Assembly (NCBI GenBank): GCA_015064285.1
Contig: SVSN01000005.1
Span: 46,780 to 85,615, forward strand
Reading direction: 5' to 3'
Source: Oscillospiraceae bacterium
GTDB taxonomy: Bacteria; Bacillota; Clostridia; Oscillospirales; CAG-272
Length of the DNA stretch: 38,836 nucleotides
Shown piece by piece: positions 2,949-10,506 of the stretch (positions are counted from its first letter, which is position 1; every line of letters starts with the position of its first letter). Position numbers and translations under genes: made by a program. The notes under the pieces are model-generated. The model saw only the letters and a list, made by a program, of their open reading frames with translations. It was not told where the DNA came from and searched no databases.

Positions 2949-5306
2949 TCAGTCTTCAAATCCCGGCGGTGTGGGAAGCTTGTCTGCCGTGTCCCCGTGC
3001 GCCTGCAGATACGCATCGCCGTAGGTGCGGCTGTTTGTGAACTGCGAGGGCGTCATCACATCGGTGTCGAAAGCGGACGGCATGTGTTTTTCCGACGCAA
3101 TCTGCCGGAGCCGGGGCACAAACTCGTCGCTGCGGAGCTTGTCGTCCCGGTAGGCTTTCCGCAGCAGGACAGAGGGAATGAACTCGTCGTATTTTTCATA
3201 GACCGGCGCTTCGTTTTCCCCGATCAGGGCAGCCAGATCCACCCCTTCTCTGTCCGCTTTGGCAGAGAGATCCCGGATCAGCGCATCCCCTGTGCCCCCT
3301 TCCAGCTTGAAGGTCATGTAGTAGCAGCCTTCGAATTCCAGACCTGTCAGGCGGAATTTCCCGGCGTTCTGTTTCAGATACCGGCGGAGGGTACGGAAGG
3401 AACGGGTACCCAGCCAGGGGAACAGCGCCCAGGTGGATCCGCCCAGACAGAGGATGGAATGCTCGGTCAGCCCCGTGTTTCTGGCGATATTCCGTGCCAC
3501 CCGGAGCCGGCGCAGGGCACCTTCCTTCAGATAGGGATATTCCGTGTCTTCTCTGAGCACCTGACGCATCCGTTCCAGAATCTTCGTGTGCACCTCACCG
3601 TAATCCCCGGGCCAGGCCACTTCCATCTTGCCCCGCACAGGTTTTACATAGATCAGGTGCCGGGGCAGATCCAGTTCTTCCACTTCCCAGACCCGTCCGG
3701 CCAGGGCAAAGCGATCCCCCACCGGCGGCGGAGAATTCAGCACCCCGATCTCATCGGATTCGCAGCGGACGGTATAGTCGTCGTTGTCCTTGAAGACGGC
3801 GTAGAACTTGAAGGAATTCACCAGCCGCTCGCCCTTCAGACCCAGGATCAGCTCTTTTTCTTCTGTCATTTCCAGCCAGTCGTTCCGGATCATGGAGAGC
3901 ATCAGGGTTTTGTAATCTTCCTTTTCGATATACTGGAAAGGCGGCAGAGTCAGTACCCGTTCTGCCAGATGGGCAGGGGAGAGTGCTCCGGCAGCCGCCA
4001 GAACGGACAAAGTCTGCTGGAAGAGCAGGCTCAGGGGCTGTTTCCGGATGTTCGGCGGCTCGATGAACCGTTCTTCGATATACAGCTGCACCACCGCGAT
4101 GGCCTTCAGCAGTTCCCAGGGGATCAGCTGGGGCAAGGGCGTGTTGGGCAGCGGATTTTCTTCCCGGAAGACCATCATCATCTCCGGCGGGTCTCCCCGT
4201 CTGCCGGACCGGCCCAGTCTCTGCAGGAAAGAGGAAACGGTGTTTGGCGAGCCCTGCTGGATCACCCGTTCCAAGCGGCCGATGTCAATGCCCAGTTCCA
4301 TGGTGACGGTGGCACAGACCACAGCCTGCACATCGTCGTCTTTCATTTTCAGTTCCGCGTCTTCCCGGATGGAAGCGGAAAGAAAACCGTGATGGATCAG
4401 AAATACGTCCGGTTCTCCCCGGTATTCGGCGATCTGCCGCAGGGTGGCGGTGATGTATTCCGTCTCTTCCCGGGAGTTGGAGAACACGATAGCTTTCCGG
4501 TCGTGGGTACAGTCGTAGATGTATTCATACCCCGGATCCAGTGAAATGGTGTCATTTCCGTGGGTCTCGGCGGTGGGCGTTTCGGCAACGTCCTTTTCCA
4601 CAATATAGAAATGTTCCATCCCCAGCCGCCAGCGGATCTTTGCCGGGGTGATTTCCGGCACCACCGTATCTCTGCCGCTGGAAGCACCCAGCCAGCCGGC
4701 TGCTCTGTCCATGTCTCCGATGGTGGCGGAAAGACCGATCCGGCGGGGAGACACACCGGTCCGTTCCCGCAGTCTTGCCAGCTGGCAGAGGATCTGGTTG
4801 CCCCGGTCGGTTCCGGTCAGGGTATGGATCTCGTCGATGATCACATAGCGCAGATCCCCGAAAATCCGGATCAGGTCGGAGTTCCGGTGGATCAGCATGC
4901 CTTCCAGGGATTCCGGCGTGATCTGCAGAATTCCCTGAGGGACTTTCATGACTTTGTTTTTATGGGAGGCCGCCACATCTCCGTGCCAGTGATACACCGG
5001 GATCCCTGTCTGGTCGCACAGCTCGGAAATTCTGCCGAACTGGTCGTTGATCAGGGATTTCAGCGGGGCAATGTAGATAGCGCCCACGGAGTTCGGCATA
5101 TCGTCGTAAAACTGGGACAGGATAGGGAAAAAGGCCGCTTCCGTCTTACCGGAGGCGGTCTGGGAGGGCAGCAGCAGATTGTTCTCTGTGTTGAAAATCA
5201 CATCCGCAGCCGCCACCTGGATTTCATTCAGATGATCCCAGCCGCGGCTGTAGATAAATTCCCGGATAAACGGGGAGTAAGCGTCAAATACATTCATGTC
5301 AGACAC
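2949..5306 (-). CDS. DEIH-box superfamily II helicase, Lhr/BrxHI-like
   Basis: This is a predicted ATP-dependent nucleic-acid translocase of 785 residues. Motifs seen in order are Q-T-A-S-G-K-T (Walker A, residues 49-55), PLKSL (Ib region, about 81), DEIH (158-161), SAT (193-195), an IVFSNSR segment (about 273) and [10 protein letters not shown] (motif VI, 362-371). The C-terminal about 400 residues follow the Lhr/BrxHI pattern with no recognisable nuclease motif. The GTG start at 5306 has a weak GAGAGA site; an ATG three codons later is possible. It follows the ATPase gene by 8 bases. BrxHI-type helicases are known next to BrxD ATPases in type 2 BREX, but no PglX, PglZ or methylase is present, so this is the TerB-associated version. 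Substrate and direction are unknown. Confidence 0.9.
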
Positions 5307-5314
5307 ACATTCTC

Positions 5315-6697
5315 TCAGAATTCCAGATCGTCTATGGTTATTTTGGCGGCGGAAGCAGAAGGTGCATCTCCGGCAGGCGTATCCGCGGGGGCATCGTCCG
5401 TATTGGCGGGGGCGGCTGCGGTATACTTCATGGTGCCGGTGATGTCTTCAAAGGTCTTGTCCGGATTGGCCAGCAGCAGATCCAGCAGGGTTACATAGTC
5501 CCGGATGATCTCACGGGGTGTCACCATGGTGTCGGCGCCGGCACGGGACAGGGAATCGGTAAGAAACGCCTGCATCTGTGCTCCGGTGATGGCCGGCTGG
5601 TATTTGTGATATTCTCCGTGGAGAGAGGTAAGCCGCATGACCAGCGCCAGCAGTTCACTGTCGGACAGCCGCTTCAGCCGCAGCACGGGAGAGAGCAGGC
5701 TCCGCAGACCTTCCGCACCGAACCGTCCGTCGGAAAGGCGGCTGCGCAGGGCTTCATAGCTGAACAGACCCCGGCGGGTGTCCTCCAGAAACTGGGGTGT
5801 GCCGCCGAACACGATCATCAGACCGGGCGCCCGTCCCTGCATGGTGTCGTTGAACATGGCCAGGATTTTTTCGTAGTTGTTTTCCCGGGAGAGCCGGTTG
5901 GAGATCTTGTACAGATTCACACATTCGTCAATGCAGACGCACAGTCCCCGATACCCTACAAGCCGGGCAAAAGCGGTGATCAGTTTCAGATGGTCGTACC
6001 AGTTGTCGTCATCGATGATGGAGAGGGATCTGATCCCCACGGCGGCACGGGCTTCCGTGCGGGTGTTGTATTCCCCCCGGAACCAGCGCAGACAGGCGGA
6101 CATTTTTCCTTCGTCCTCACAGCGGTAGGCATTGTAATACTCCCGCATAACGGTGGCAAAGTCAAATCCGCCCACGTCGGCTTCCAGGGCACGGACCGTC
6201 CGCATGATCTCCTTGCCGAAAGCGGCATCGTATGCGGGGGAATCCACTTCCATGCCGGCGTCCGCAAGGGTGTCCCGGATCTGGCTGAACCACCGGCTGA
6301 TGATCACCGGCAGCGCACCGCCGTCCGGCTGGGTCTTGCAGGCCAGATTCTTTACCAGTTCCCGGTAGGTGGCCAGTCCCGCACCGCCGCTGGCAGACAG
6401 TTTCCGTTCGGGAGAAAGGTCGCAGTCCGCAGTGAGAAAACCCTTGTCCATGGCGAATCCGCGGGTCAGCTGGATCAGAAAACTCTTCCCGGAACCGTAC
6501 CGGCCGATGATGAATTTACAGCTGCCCTCACCGTCCGCCACACGTTCCAGCGCACCTGTCAGGGCTTCGATCTCGTCCAGACGACCGATGGCAATGTACG
6601 GCGCACCGGAACGGGGAACCACCCCGGCAGACAAGGCGGAAAGAAGGGTCCCGAGGATCCGTCTGGGTACTTTTTTTACGTTTACGCTCTGCTCCAC
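5315..6697 (-). CDS. BrxD-like P-loop ATPase (DUF2791-type)
   Basis: The product is a 460-residue AAA-like ATPase, predicted to act with the adjacent helicase. Walker A is GRYGSGKS (65-72), Walker B is CVCIDE with Asp257-Glu258, and a sensor-like segment MIVFGGTPQF follows near 294-303. The IIGRYGSGKS and FGGTPQFLED signatures are characteristic of the BrxC/BrxD ATP-binding family. The C-terminal about 60 residues are Ala/Pro/Thr-rich and probably a flexible tail. The start is GTG at 6697 with GGGAGGA 10 bases upstream; the first 16 bases overlap the end of the TerB gene, which suggests translational coupling. In BREX the relative BrxD is paired with BrxHI; its biochemical role here is inference. 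Confidence 0.88.
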   Translation of the reverse strand: MEQSVNVKKVPRRILGTLLSALSAGVVPRSGAPYIAIGRLDEIEALTGALERVADGEGSCKFIIGRYGSGKSFLIQLTRGFAMDKGFLTADCDLSPERKLSASGGAGLATYRELVKNLACKTQPDGGALPVIISRWFSQIRDTLADAGMEVDSPAYDAAFGKEIMRTVRALEADVGGFDFATVMREYYNAYRCEDEGKMSACLRWFRGEYNTRTEARAAVGIRSLSIIDDDNWYDHLKLITAFARLVGYRGLCVCIDECVNLYKISNRLSRENNYEKILAMFNDTMQGRAPGLMIVFGGTPQFLEDTRRGLFSYEALRSRLSDGRFGAEGLRSLLSPVLRLKRLSDSELLALVMRLTSLHGEYHKYQPAITGAQMQAFLTDSLSRAGADTMVTPREIIRDYVTLLDLLLANPDKTFEDITGTMKYTAAAPANTDDAPADTPAGDAPSASAAKITIDDLEF

Positions 6698-8709
6698 GAT
6701 TCTGCGTCCTCCCTGTAGTCTTCAATCAGCTGATACCGGTTTCCATCCGCTTCGATGAGGATATCTCCCACCAGTTCCAGGAAAATTTCGTTGATCTGTT
6801 CGGCCATCCGTCCCGGGAAAAGCCCGTGATCCCGGCAGAAGGCGGAATATTGTCCCTCCAGCATGGCAGAGACCGCTTCCTTTTCCAGAGAATGGCGTTC
6901 TCCGGCAGGCAGGGTGGTCACTTCCGCAAAGGGATCTTCTTGATGATCCTGTGTAGTATCGACATGCTCCACAGTGTTTTTGGCGTCTTCCGTCCGGTTT
7001 TCTGAAAGATCCGTCACCGCCGCTGCGGTATGGGCCTGTTCCGGCAGAGCCTCTTCCCGGATTTCCGTGTTTTCCGTAAGAGCGTCGGAATCCAGCGCAC
7101 CTGCCACCGGAGCAGTTTCTTCGTCCGGCACATAGGGCAGCTCTTCCGCTGCATAGGCAGGACTGTTTTCCGCTTCCTCACCGGTGAGACGGCTGGTGTT
7201 GACCCAGGAATCCGCTTCGATCCGGTGTGCCGCGGAGAAATCAAAGCCGGTGGTCTCCGCTTCGTACAGCTTCAGATAGGCCTCTTCTTCCGCATCCGTT
7301 TTCTTCTTCACGGGCATCTCGTCCGGCCCGAAGCAGGCATCCACCAGGGCTTTGTCTTCGGCGCTGATTTCGCTGGCATTGAGCTTGGATTTGATCTTCA
7401 GCCGGTACCGCAGCTTGTTTTCCGCGTATTTGACGATCCCGGTGACAAAACGTCTGGTGTCGGGGGAACGGATGCAGGAGTTGAATGCCACGTCGATCCG
7501 GCGTTTGCCTTCGGTCTGGATGATAGCGCCGCAGAAAGAATCTCTGGTCAGCCGATACGTCCGGTCCAGTGCGAACATGCCCCGGTTGTCGGCATAAGCG
7601 GCTTCCAGTACCACGGTCAGTGCTTCCAGAATGCACCTGTCATATTGTTCCCGGTTTCCGCCGGTATAATAACGGCTTTTTTTATAATCGTAATCCGAAT
7701 AGGTTTCCAGTAGTACCCCTGCCAGCAGCGACAGAGCCCGTCCGGACAACCGGCCTCCGGGGGGACACATATTGTCCAGATAGAACTCCTTGAACTGGGC
7801 GCGCCGTACAATCTCCGCCAGAAAAGGCTCGATGGAACCGGGCAGCGGAACGTCATGGATCAGGGCATAATCCGGCACCCATTCGCACAGATAGGTGTCC
7901 AGCTTCTGGTAACTCCGGCGGTAATGGGCCCACAGCCGGCAGAGCTGTTCCATCCCTTCTGCGGGAGGAATGCACTCCGGCAGGTTGATGATCTCGAAAA
8001 TGTACAATAATATATAAGGAAAATCCGCTTCCAGAAATACGCCTGCTCTGGCGTTGTCCCGGAACCAGAGATAGAAAGCAAGCTGTCTGCTGTCCATCTG
8101 GGCGTACTGGGGAACAAAGGAGGCGTAAGGTACCGGCTCGCTGGGGGTACCCTGCTTGCTGTGGCTGATGGCAGCGTCTCTGGCGAACCCGGCATAGAAC
8201 GAGAAATCGTTGATCCAGCGGCGTACCGTAACCTGACGGATCAGCCAGCCGCTGCCCTCCCGTTCCGACACAACCTCTCCTGCGGAAGACCGTTTCGGCG
8301 GCGCGTCGATATCCCGGAACGTCTGAAAGGCATCTTTTTTGTCTTCTTCCCCGAAACCGAAGGTGCTGCCGTTTTCCTGTGCCTGCATCCGGCTCTGGAA
8401 CCCTCTGGACGTGGAATAGGTGGATGTTCTGTAGGTGCGGTCGGCAGGACGGACAGGCCGGGAGGAGGCAGGAGCCTTTGCAGGATCTCGGGGGGGGATT
8501 GCCTCCGTTTTCGGCGTGGCGTCGTCCTCCACAGACAGGGGAATGGTGTCCGTGGTGCGGCCGTCATAGGTGGGCGGACTGTAGGTTCTTTTGTGGATGG
8601 GCGGAAGATTCCAGAAATCCTCTTCCGGATCATGGGGGCTGGCAGAGGTATCCCGGGGGAGCGTTTCCGACTGATCCGGTTTCCCGTTCCGACGATCAAA
8701 ATCCTGCAT
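6682..8709 (-). CDS. TerB_N/TerB_C domain protein
   Basis: The first gene of the SOS-like operon encodes 675 residues. An N-terminal about 135-residue Pro/Thr/Arg-rich region looks disordered. It is followed by a TerB_N-type domain with the family pattern FVPQYAQMDSRQLAFYLWFR (about residues 200-220), then a helical middle. An acidic, low-complexity linker precedes a C-terminal TerB_C-like end with the RMAEQINEIFLELVGD segment (about 630). TerB-family domains were described in tellurite-resistance and related stress systems, and TerB_N/TerB_C proteins are known to be encoded beside helicase and ATPase genes in predicted DNA-processing or anti-phage modules. I chose the ATG at 8709 (GAGGTGG six bases upstream). 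The in-frame ATG at 8730 lies inside the putative LexA site and only about 9 bases after the predicted start of transcription. Molecular function is unknown. Confidence 0.85.
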   Translation of the reverse strand: MQDFDRRNGKPDQSETLPRDTSASPHDPEEDFWNLPPIHKRTYSPPTYDGRTTDTIPLSVEDDATPKTEAIPPRDPAKAPASSRPVRPADRTYRTSTYSTSRGFQSRMQAQENGSTFGFGEEDKKDAFQTFRDIDAPPKRSSAGEVVSEREGSGWLIRQVTVRRWINDFSFYAGFARDAAISHSKQGTPSEPVPYASFVPQYAQMDSRQLAFYLWFRDNARAGVFLEADFPYILLYIFEIINLPECIPPAEGMEQLCRLWAHYRRSYQKLDTYLCEWVPDYALIHDVPLPGSIEPFLAEIVRRAQFKEFYLDNMCPPGGRLSGRALSLLAGVLLETYSDYDYKKSRYYTGGNREQYDRCILEALTVVLEAAYADNRGMFALDRTYRLTRDSFCGAIIQTEGKRRIDVAFNSCIRSPDTRRFVTGIVKYAENKLRYRLKIKSKLNASEISAEDKALVDACFGPDEMPVKKKTDAEEEAYLKLYEAETTGFDFSAAHRIEADSWVNTSRLTGEEAENSPAYAAEELPYVPDEETAPVAGALDSDALTENTEIREEALPEQAHTAAAVTDLSENRTEDAKNTVEHVDTTQDHQEDPFAEVTTLPAGERHSLEKEAVSAMLEGQYSAFCRDHGLFPGRMAEQINEIFLELVGDILIEADGNRYQLIEDYREDAESWSRA

Positions 8710-8723
8710 TCGTACCACCTCGT

Positions 8724-8737
8724 TAAACATTCGTTCG
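8724..8737 (-). promoter_or_regulatory. Putative LexA/DinR (SOS) operator
   Basis: The minus strand reads CGAACGAATGTTTA. Against the Bacillus subtilis LexA consensus CGAACRNRYGTTYC it matches 13 of 14 positions, failing only at the last base. It sits 8 bases past the -10 hexamer, at about +2 to +15 of the predicted transcript, a position suited to repression. uvrA, a classical SOS gene, is in the operon downstream. Binding is inferred, not shown. Confidence 0.7.
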
Positions 8738-8745
8738 TATCCTTC

Positions 8746-8774
8746 ATTATACCATAGATACTATTTACTGTCAA
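8746..8774 (-). promoter_or_regulatory. Consensus sigma-A promoter of the TerB-ATPase-helicase-uvrA operon
   Basis: On the minus strand TTGACA (8774-8769), 17 bases, then TATAAT (8751-8746), with an extended -10 TGG just upstream. This is a perfect match to the housekeeping consensus, so strong expression would be expected unless repressed; the adjacent LexA-like site would explain how it is held down. Confidence 0.9.
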
Positions 8775-8830
8775 TGTGTTTTGATTAAAAAATTCTAATC
8801 TGAAAACAAGGAACAAATGTCCTGCAGGCA

Positions 8831-8895: not shown

Positions 8896-10506
8896 ATGCA
8901 AAAGAATCGTATGTTGGGGACGCTTATCCCTGTTCTGCTGGCGGTTTTGGTGACAGGCATCGGGTATTATGTGACCCTGCCCCCCCTGAACCCCCATTCA
9001 TCCCAGTTCTGGACATTTTTCTTCTTTACGCTGGCAGTCATCGGCGGCGCCGGTCTGCTGATCTCTCTTGCCCACCGGAAGATTGTTGTGGTAAACCAGC
9101 ACATGAAGCTGCCCGTGTTCATCAAGGTTCTGCTTGTGATCGCCGGGATCGCGCTGGCGCTGCTGCTGATCTTTTCGATCGCTTCTTCTCAGCTGCTGCG
9201 TGCAGGCACCTACAGCTCCCTGATCACCGTAGAGCAGGGGGATTTTGCGGAAGATGTACCTCAGTCCGAATATGTCACCGATATTGCCCTGATGGACTCT
9301 GACTCCGCCCGGATCATCGGCGCCCGTACACTGGGTACCCTGTCGGATCTGGTGTCCCAGTATAATGTTTCCGACACCTATACCCAGATCGCCATGGAAG
9401 GAGTGCCCTTCAAGGTATCTCCTCTGGAACACGCTTCCTTCTTCAAATGGCTGCAGAACGGTTCCAAAGGGATTCCCGGGTATGTCAAGGTGGATCCTGT
9501 TGCCTTTGATGCGGAATTTGTCCGTCTGGAACAGTATATCACCATTTCCCCCTCCTGTTATCTGGGGGACGATCTGATGCGCGCCCTCCGTTTTGCCGCC
9601 CCCACCGCCATCTGGGGATCTGTCTATTTTGAAGTGGACGATCAGGGAAACCCCTTCTGGATTGCTTCCGTGCTGGAGCCCCAGGCAGGCTGGTTCGGCG
9701 CATATGATGTAACCGAAGTGGTTGTCATGGACGCATGCACCGGCGAAGCGCAGACCTATGCCCTGGGAGAAGTACCGGCATGGGTGGACATTGTGTTTAC
9801 CGGTTATCTGATCTGCGAGAAGTATGACTGGTACGGCATGCTGGGCGGCGGATATCTCAACTCCATTTTCAGCCAGACGGGCTGCGTGGTGACCACCGAC
9901 GACTTCGGCTACAAGATCATCGGCGATGATGTGTATGTGTTCACCGGCGTAACCTCCGTTTCCAATGACGAAGCCAATATCGGCTTTATCCTGGTCAACA
10001 GCCGGACAGGGGAATACACCTACTATGCCGTGCCCGGTGCGGAAGAATACTCTGCCATGGCAGCCGCCGAAGGTTCCGTACAGCAGTACCGGTACGAGGC
10101 TTCTTTCCCCACGCTGATCAACGTGAATGGAGAAGCCACCTATATTATGGTGCTCAAGGACGCTTCCGGGATCGTGAAGATGTATTCCATGGTCAACGTG
10201 GAAAACTATAACCTGGTGGTGACATCCGAAACCCAGAACGATGTGTTCCAGAAGTATAAGGCAAGACTGAGCCAGTCCGGGGTGAATGTGGATTCCGACA
10301 GCCTGGAAAGCCGCACCATTACGGTGGAAGAGATTCTGTATATCCCCAATAACGGCACCACAACCGTATATATCCGCTCCACGGACGGTAAGGTATACAA
10401 AATCGCCTTTGACGAATCGCTGCTGCTGACCACGGCCGGCGACAGACTGACGGTATACTATACCATTGAGGAACCCATCACCCAGCTTGTGAAGTTTGAA
10501 CAGTAA
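8896..10506 (+). CDS. Three-TM membrane protein with large extracytoplasmic domain, function unknown
   Basis: I do not recognise a function. The 536-residue product has three hydrophobic segments near residues 6-27, 37-57 and 74-96, then about 440 mostly polar residues predicted to lie outside the cell. These are rich in beta-type sequence with repeated Tyr/Val/Thr strands. Similar Clostridial proteins are, as I recall, sometimes auto-annotated as CvpA-like, but no CvpA motif is evident to me. The ATG at 8896 is preceded by CCGGAGGA at 6-7 bases; an earlier in-frame ATG at 8860 overlaps the promoter and has no ribosome site. The gene is first in an operon with the RHH protein and yifB, 11 bases before the next start. 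Confidence 0.75.
   Translation: MQKNRMLGTLIPVLLAVLVTGIGYYVTLPPLNPHSSQFWTFFFFTLAVIGGAGLLISLAHRKIVVVNQHMKLPVFIKVLLVIAGIALALLLIFSIASSQLLRAGTYSSLITVEQGDFAEDVPQSEYVTDIALMDSDSARIIGARTLGTLSDLVSQYNVSDTYTQIAMEGVPFKVSPLEHASFFKWLQNGSKGIPGYVKVDPVAFDAEFVRLEQYITISPSCYLGDDLMRALRFAAPTAIWGSVYFEVDDQGNPFWIASVLEPQAGWFGAYDVTEVVVMDACTGEAQTYALGEVPAWVDIVFTGYLICEKYDWYGMLGGGYLNSIFSQTGCVVTTDDFGYKIIGDDVYVFTGVTSVSNDEANIGFILVNSRTGEYTYYAVPGAEEYSAMAAAEGSVQQYRYEASFPTLINVNGEATYIMVLKDASGIVKMYSMVNVENYNLVVTSETQNDVFQKYKARLSQSGVNVDSDSLESRTITVEEILYIPNNGTTTVYIRSTDGKVYKIAFDESLLLTTAGDRLTVYYTIEEPITQLVKFEQ

Follow-up and report, generated by a model that had tools for sequence, protein, structure and literature searches.

The genes sngA, sngB, sngC, and uvrA, which follow one another on the minus strand of the window (the whole stretch of 38,836 nucleotides that was analyzed), probably form a LexA-repressed SOS operon, a reading to which we assign a probability of roughly 85%. 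The three sng genes make up the anti-phage system Shango. In this group of gut Clostridia, the operon that they form with uvrA appears to be switched on by DNA damage, since the repressor site of the cell's DNA damage genes is also found in its promoter.

Gene content of the operon

The first gene, sngA (positions 6682 to 8709), codes for a TerB_N/TerB_C protein recognized by Pfam and by PADLOC (SngA, 6.6e-44), and it is followed by a BrxC/BrxD-type ATPase (sngB, 5315 to 6697; PADLOC SngB, 4.8e-155), a DEAD/DEAH helicase (sngC, 2949 to 5306; PADLOC SngC, 5.1e-238), and uvrA (66 to 2924), which scored 1,475 bits with the NCBIfam UvrA model NF001503 (cutoff of 1,147). The sngB gene overlaps the end of sngA, sngC begins 8 nt past sngB, and uvrA starts 24 nt past the sngC stop codon. 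SngA, SngB, and SngC are all present, adjacent, on one strand, and in the expected order; given the three PADLOC matches and the full UvrA, the operon is therefore Shango plus uvrA. The preliminary description, made from the sequence alone, had listed a TerB_N/TerB_C protein, an ATPase, a helicase, and uvrA, and these assignments stand, but the cassette is the described system Shango, and the BrxD and Lhr models stayed below their cutoffs (156.5 bits with NF033438 for BREX BrxD, cutoff of 350; 23.6 bits with WH_Lhr, cutoff of 27). A ligase-associated helicase was also rejected as the identity of SngC (TIGR04121, 221.2 bits, cutoff of 850).

By sequence, the closest relative of SngC with a solved structure is YprA (MrfA) of Bacillus subtilis, a mitomycin repair helicase (PDB 6znp; E value of 2.3e-28), with a match that spans residues 14 to 380 of 785. 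Among solved structures, no relative was found for SngA, and the best match of SngB reached just 0.018. A search for phage-borne Shango found SngB in none of 50,697 phage records. Identity between the window and other members of the genus ranged from 35 to 77% for SngA, 63 to 97% for SngB, 77 to 97% for SngC, and 75 to 96% for UvrA; the divergence of SngA would fit the part of the system that meets changing phage targets, although this is only a hint. The divergent neighbor of the operon (8896 to 10506) had no Pfam or NCBIfam match, yet many genus members have a homologue of it close to the operon, often behind uvrA instead.

The sngA promoter and the SOS motif of the genome

Read on the minus strand, the sngA promoter has a -35 element TTGACA (8769 to 8774), a 17-nt spacer, and a -10 element TATAAT (8746 to 8751), followed after 8 nt by the candidate LexA-type operator CGAACGAATGTTTA (8724 to 8737), a sequence resembling a ribosome-binding site, GAGGTGG (8715 to 8721), and the ATG at 8709. 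The LexA consensus of B. subtilis is CGAACRNRYGTTYC, with which the sngA site agrees at 13 of 14 positions; against CGAAC-N4-GTTCG, it has two mismatches. Both the sigma-A promoter and this Bacillus-type box on the same strand had been noted in the preliminary description, whose coordinates proved exact. The list of open reading frames opens sngA at 8730 because an in-frame ATG falls within the LexA-type box.

The lexA, recA, dinB, and uvrB promoters of the same genome carry sites of the GAAC-N4-GTT type: AGAACAAGTGTTTA overlaps the -35 element of lexA, CGAAATTATGTTCG lies 9 nt past the TATAAT of recA, AGAACCATTGTTCG and AGAACCGTTGTTCG are located within the spacers of the dinB promoters, and uvrB has a weaker one, AGAACAAATGTACC (score of 10.6). 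A palindromic matrix was built from genus sites, 17 of lexA (out of 18 lexA promoters, G003 being left out), 17 of recA, and 2 of dinB, with no sngA site included, and it gave scores of 12.4 for the sngA site, 13.0 for recA, 14.1 for lexA, and 16.9 for dinB. Comparison with the genome's own SOS motif, which had been suggested as a check, thus puts sngA near recA, and the operator in the sngA promoter matches that motif. As the sngA and recA boxes are found 8 and 9 nt past the -10 element, respectively, the former is nearly at the recA position. The LexA of this genome reads without interruption and has the Ala-Gly pair as well as the usual Ser and Lys, presumably in the roles known from LexA generally.

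The assembly, a draft of 3.2 Mb, consists of 134 contigs, with 73% completeness and 4% contamination. A second copy of the operon, 82 to 88% identical, is present on contig C102, where the identical 14-mer operator is found behind a promoter spacer that has diverged, and there are two dinB loci with similar flanks. Because both the Shango-uvrA loci (C102 and C113) and the dinB loci (C121 and C37) are duplicated with flanks that are alike, the bin behind this assembly (G000) seems to mix two related strains. Another LexA-like site, the weaker GGAACAAATGTCCT (window positions 8810 to 8823, score of 10.6), sits between the two promoters that drive sngA and the gene at 8896 to 10506 in opposite directions; it is retained in the C102 copy and in G013 and is absent from G014.

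Motif frequency and genomic context

Across the whole window, we found 19 CGAAC-N4-GTTCG sites with up to two mismatches, versus 17.7 expected, and genome-wide matches to CGAACRNRYGTTYS with up to one mismatch numbered 38, versus 65 for the reversed control. The sngA site ranked third in the window by matrix score, behind two sites (33636 and 12222) that both lie within long open reading frames. With counts at chance level, we dropped them as evidence for a LexA site, and the perfect promoter was likewise dropped as a mark of special status, since the genome has 154 perfect TTGACA-17-TATAAT promoters. The evidential weight for the sngA site is in its position and conservation rather than in the motif count.

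Among 85 promoter-like sites of this genome, with the box sought within -40 to +20 of the end of the -10 element, scores of at least 12 were found only at sngA (twice), dinB (twice), two prophage-like genes, and a gene for an AAA ATPase, which makes the combination of promoter and box rare; this set counts duplicates, comes from DNA picked partly by the motif, and is without the recA and lexA promoters, which have different -35 boxes. When 30 loci were chosen purely as perfect promoters (32 matches), one had a site of at least 12 just downstream of the -10 element. On the minus strand of L292, near 1586, a P-loop gene that is AAA-ATPase-like by eye has AGAACATTTATTCG just past its -10 element. 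The prophage-like genes, L001/L032 (contig C114) and L303 (contig C14), have two LexA-type sites each, inside promoters.

The nearest matches to the sngA site elsewhere in the genome are at these prophage-like genes (CGAACGAATGTTTG in L001/L032 and two sites in L303), as could also be explained if another repressor with a LexA-like operator, for instance a phage-type repressor, bound the sngA site. We consider this very unlikely: the prophage sites may well be LexA targets too, the sngA site shares the motif found at lexA, recA, and dinB, and within the genus the presence of the site tracks lexA (see below). Coincidence, i.e., a common promoter whose start region happens to resemble the motif, would agree with the chance-level counts and with the frequency of perfect promoters, but it appears extremely improbable considering that the box keeps the same offset from the -10 element in 11 genus genomes, that the 14-mer is identical behind the diverged spacer of the C102 copy, and that the site recurs in the same place outside the genus.

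Conservation within the genus and apparent loss of lexA

SngA was found in all 25 genus genomes, and the sngA promoter was readable in 24 of them (G005 was left out). A site scoring at least 10 at +8 to +10 was present in 11 of the 17 genomes with lexA and in none of the 7 without a detected lexA (Fisher test, 0.005, uncorrected for kinship); the threshold of 10 was chosen after the scores had been seen, and at 12 the figures are 10 of 17 and 0 of 7. With this distribution and the alike sites of lexA, recA, dinB, and uvrB in the same genome, the SOS-type control predicted for sngABC-uvrA in the preliminary description can be considered well supported at the sequence level. Conservation in relatives, which had been named as a further test, was borne out just in part, since 6 of the 17 genomes with lexA (G001, G003, G012, G016, G018, and G022) have no good sngA site, so that such control can be absent despite LexA. 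Half-sites are found where the full box is missing, CGAACGAATGCAAT in G003 and G022 and TACGAA in G002, G010, G011, and G019, and these leftovers look like operator decay.

LexA scored above the cutoff in 18 of the 25 genomes, and a quick tree of RecA, UvrB, and SngB places the seven others in two clades (G002, G010, G011, and G019; G009, G020, and G021). The recA site was present in 17 of the 18 genomes with lexA (the exception being G016) and in none of the six lexA-less genomes having recA (no recA was found in G010). In both clades where lexA is missing, the recA and sngA sites are missing too; lexA was apparently lost in the two. As there are only two loss events, the association carries no formal significance (the sign test was not significant), and as the drafts are 66 to 94% complete, lexA could be overlooked in single genomes.

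Distribution outside the genus

Elsewhere in the family, SngA was found in 44 of 64 genomes, and the promoter search recovered 38 of the 44 sngA promoters (6 were not found). The operator is rare among these, with sites of at least 12 in 1 of 19 genomes with lexA and 1 of 19 without, and no association between box and lexA was seen across the family, where 33 genomes with E values of ≤7.3e-11 were taken as having lexA and weaker matches (e.g., G084) as lacking it. In 20 of 29 genomes of the family, the motif stands ahead of lexA itself, so its rarity at sngA is not due to a different motif. Among 87 distinct sngA promoters from outside the genus, 5 (L152, L192, L209, G047, and G084) have a site of at least 12 in the same place, compared to a mean of 0.06 and a maximum of 1 in 1,000 rounds of shuffled controls; this set pools the family and the named contigs and includes L151, the boxless promoter of genus member G020. 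The other 82 promoters score below 12, and SOS control as a general trait of Shango was accordingly rejected. No convincing box was found in the Klebsiella and Roseobacter plasmid copies of Shango.

Beyond the family, 397 further genomes sampled from the phylum yielded SngB in 22. We scanned 24 upstream regions, 20 from these 22 genomes (without G198 and G374) and 4 from plasmid copies, and found the consensus site with up to one mismatch in 6 of them (shuffled mean of 0.17, with none of 200 rounds reaching 6). Three of the six share one genus, which leaves four lineages, and in that genus the site is located 10 nt past TATAAT; in G509 and in a Paenibacillus cellulositrophicus plasmid, it falls within the spacer of a promoter, at a distance of 320 and 161 nt, respectively, from the assumed start downstream. 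All six genes behind these sites are SngA by PADLOC. With the matrix, the same 24 upstream regions gave 2 sites versus a mean of 0.46, which is not significant (P = 0.075). A Burkholderia contaminans plasmid (L381) was left out of the scan, since its annotation shows no TerB gene immediately upstream; at 3625 to 8077, genes resembling those for SngB and a helicase are present, and the place expected for sngA is taken by a 765-nt hypothetical gene.

Linkage with uvrA

Among the 21 copies retrieved from the genus, 15 have uvrA behind Shango, five reach the end of the contig before it, and in G016 uvrA is on a separate contig. Of the 80 named contigs, 13 have uvrA, 11 of which read as genus members, the remaining two being L152 and L160; in G047, from another genus, gene distances also fit a Shango-uvrA operon. 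This arrangement, with uvrA so close to sngC, raises the question of whether the LexA site serves uvrA, with Shango merely carried along between an SOS promoter and that gene. Genes of excision repair are textbook members of the SOS regulon, and uvrB has a site of at least 12 in 4 of the 19 genus genomes scanned. However, a scan of 24 upstream regions of uvrA itself, from 24 genomes of the genus and the family, found none that reached 12 (best score of 11.0), and SOS control of uvrA independent of Shango is thus unsupported. Sites also precede sngA with no uvrA behind in L192, L209, and the Paenibacillus plasmid, as well as in G084, whose uvrA is on another contig, so the sngA site is not simply a relic of uvrA control. 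We regard control directed at uvrA alone as unlikely and favor LexA repression of the operon as a whole.

Proposed model of damage-dependent expression

Under LexA repression of sngABC-uvrA, a LexA dimer would occupy CGAACGAATGTTTA, which spans about +2 to +15 counted from the predicted transcription start, and block RNA polymerase at the consensus promoter. Single-stranded DNA arising from damage or from phage DNA replication would lead to RecA filaments and these to self-cleavage of LexA, after which SngA, SngB, SngC, and UvrA would be made together, presumably from a single transcript. Healthy cells would hence contain little Shango, and its level, together with that of UvrA, would go up upon damage or infection.

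Such control would link a poorly understood defense system to the general DNA damage alarm and to excision repair. If true, Shango levels should vary with DNA damage, with the induction of prophages, and with drugs that damage DNA, and the natural behavior of the system would escape tests run from constitutive promoters. The two clades without LexA that have nevertheless kept the genes offer a natural comparison. A more speculative reading, which we find rather doubtful, is that Shango and UvrA are one SOS-inducible genome integrity unit, in which SngABC would recognize damaged or foreign DNA structures and work with UvrA; a defense system would then have turned into a core damage module, as its presence throughout the genus might suggest, and LexA control would have arisen or been kept in several Bacillota lineages.

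Comparison with known systems

We found no report of LexA control of Shango, or of Shango with uvrA, in the open-licence literature, supplements aside; in PMC13216270, the two terms occur without connection. Both features seem undescribed. The preliminary description knew of no account of the arrangement; within that literature, this seems to apply to the LexA control and the operon with uvrA but not to the cassette, which is the described Shango. Shango is reported to inhibit several Pseudomonas phages, and protection was shown for the Shango of Pseudomonas aeruginosa PA14 (PMC10250203). It had been suggested that LexA binding would make the cassette part of the damage response rather than of constitutive phage defense, an opposition that does not follow for a system described as anti-phage. 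Moreover, damage-responsive immune operons under other regulators are already in print (PMC13373217), so LexA control does not exclude the presumed defensive role of Shango in this host.

The Shango of PMC10250203 shares with the operon described here three adjacent genes for a TerB-like protein, an ATPase, and a helicase, all matched here by PADLOC; the differences are the fourth gene, uvrA, and the LexA-type operator in the promoter. Shango is also present in 25 of 25 genus genomes here, compared to its patchy occurrence in 22 of 397 other genomes of the phylum. Although YprA (MrfA) is the best solved relative of SngC, that match is partial, and SngC has been grouped with BrxHI, DruE, and DpdJ (PMC12278908). 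In CapW/BrxR, CapH+CapP, and CapK+CapS, transcription of immune operons is likewise tied to DNA damage, but by dedicated regulators encoded beside the operon (PMC13373217), whereas the sngA promoter carries a site of the type bound by LexA, a global repressor. A search for LexA sites in gut bacteria led to the proposal that LexA controls hsdS, a type I restriction gene, which similarly placed a defense gene in a Gram-positive gut SOS regulon; hsdS belongs to a different system, and TerB and Shango are not named in the relevant passages of PMC3998124. In its control, the operon resembles the Gram-positive LexA-controlled SOS operons (recA, lexA, dinB, and uvrB), with which sngABC-uvrA shares the type of operator and, past the -10 element, a position near that of recA, while the gene set under its putative control is a defense system.
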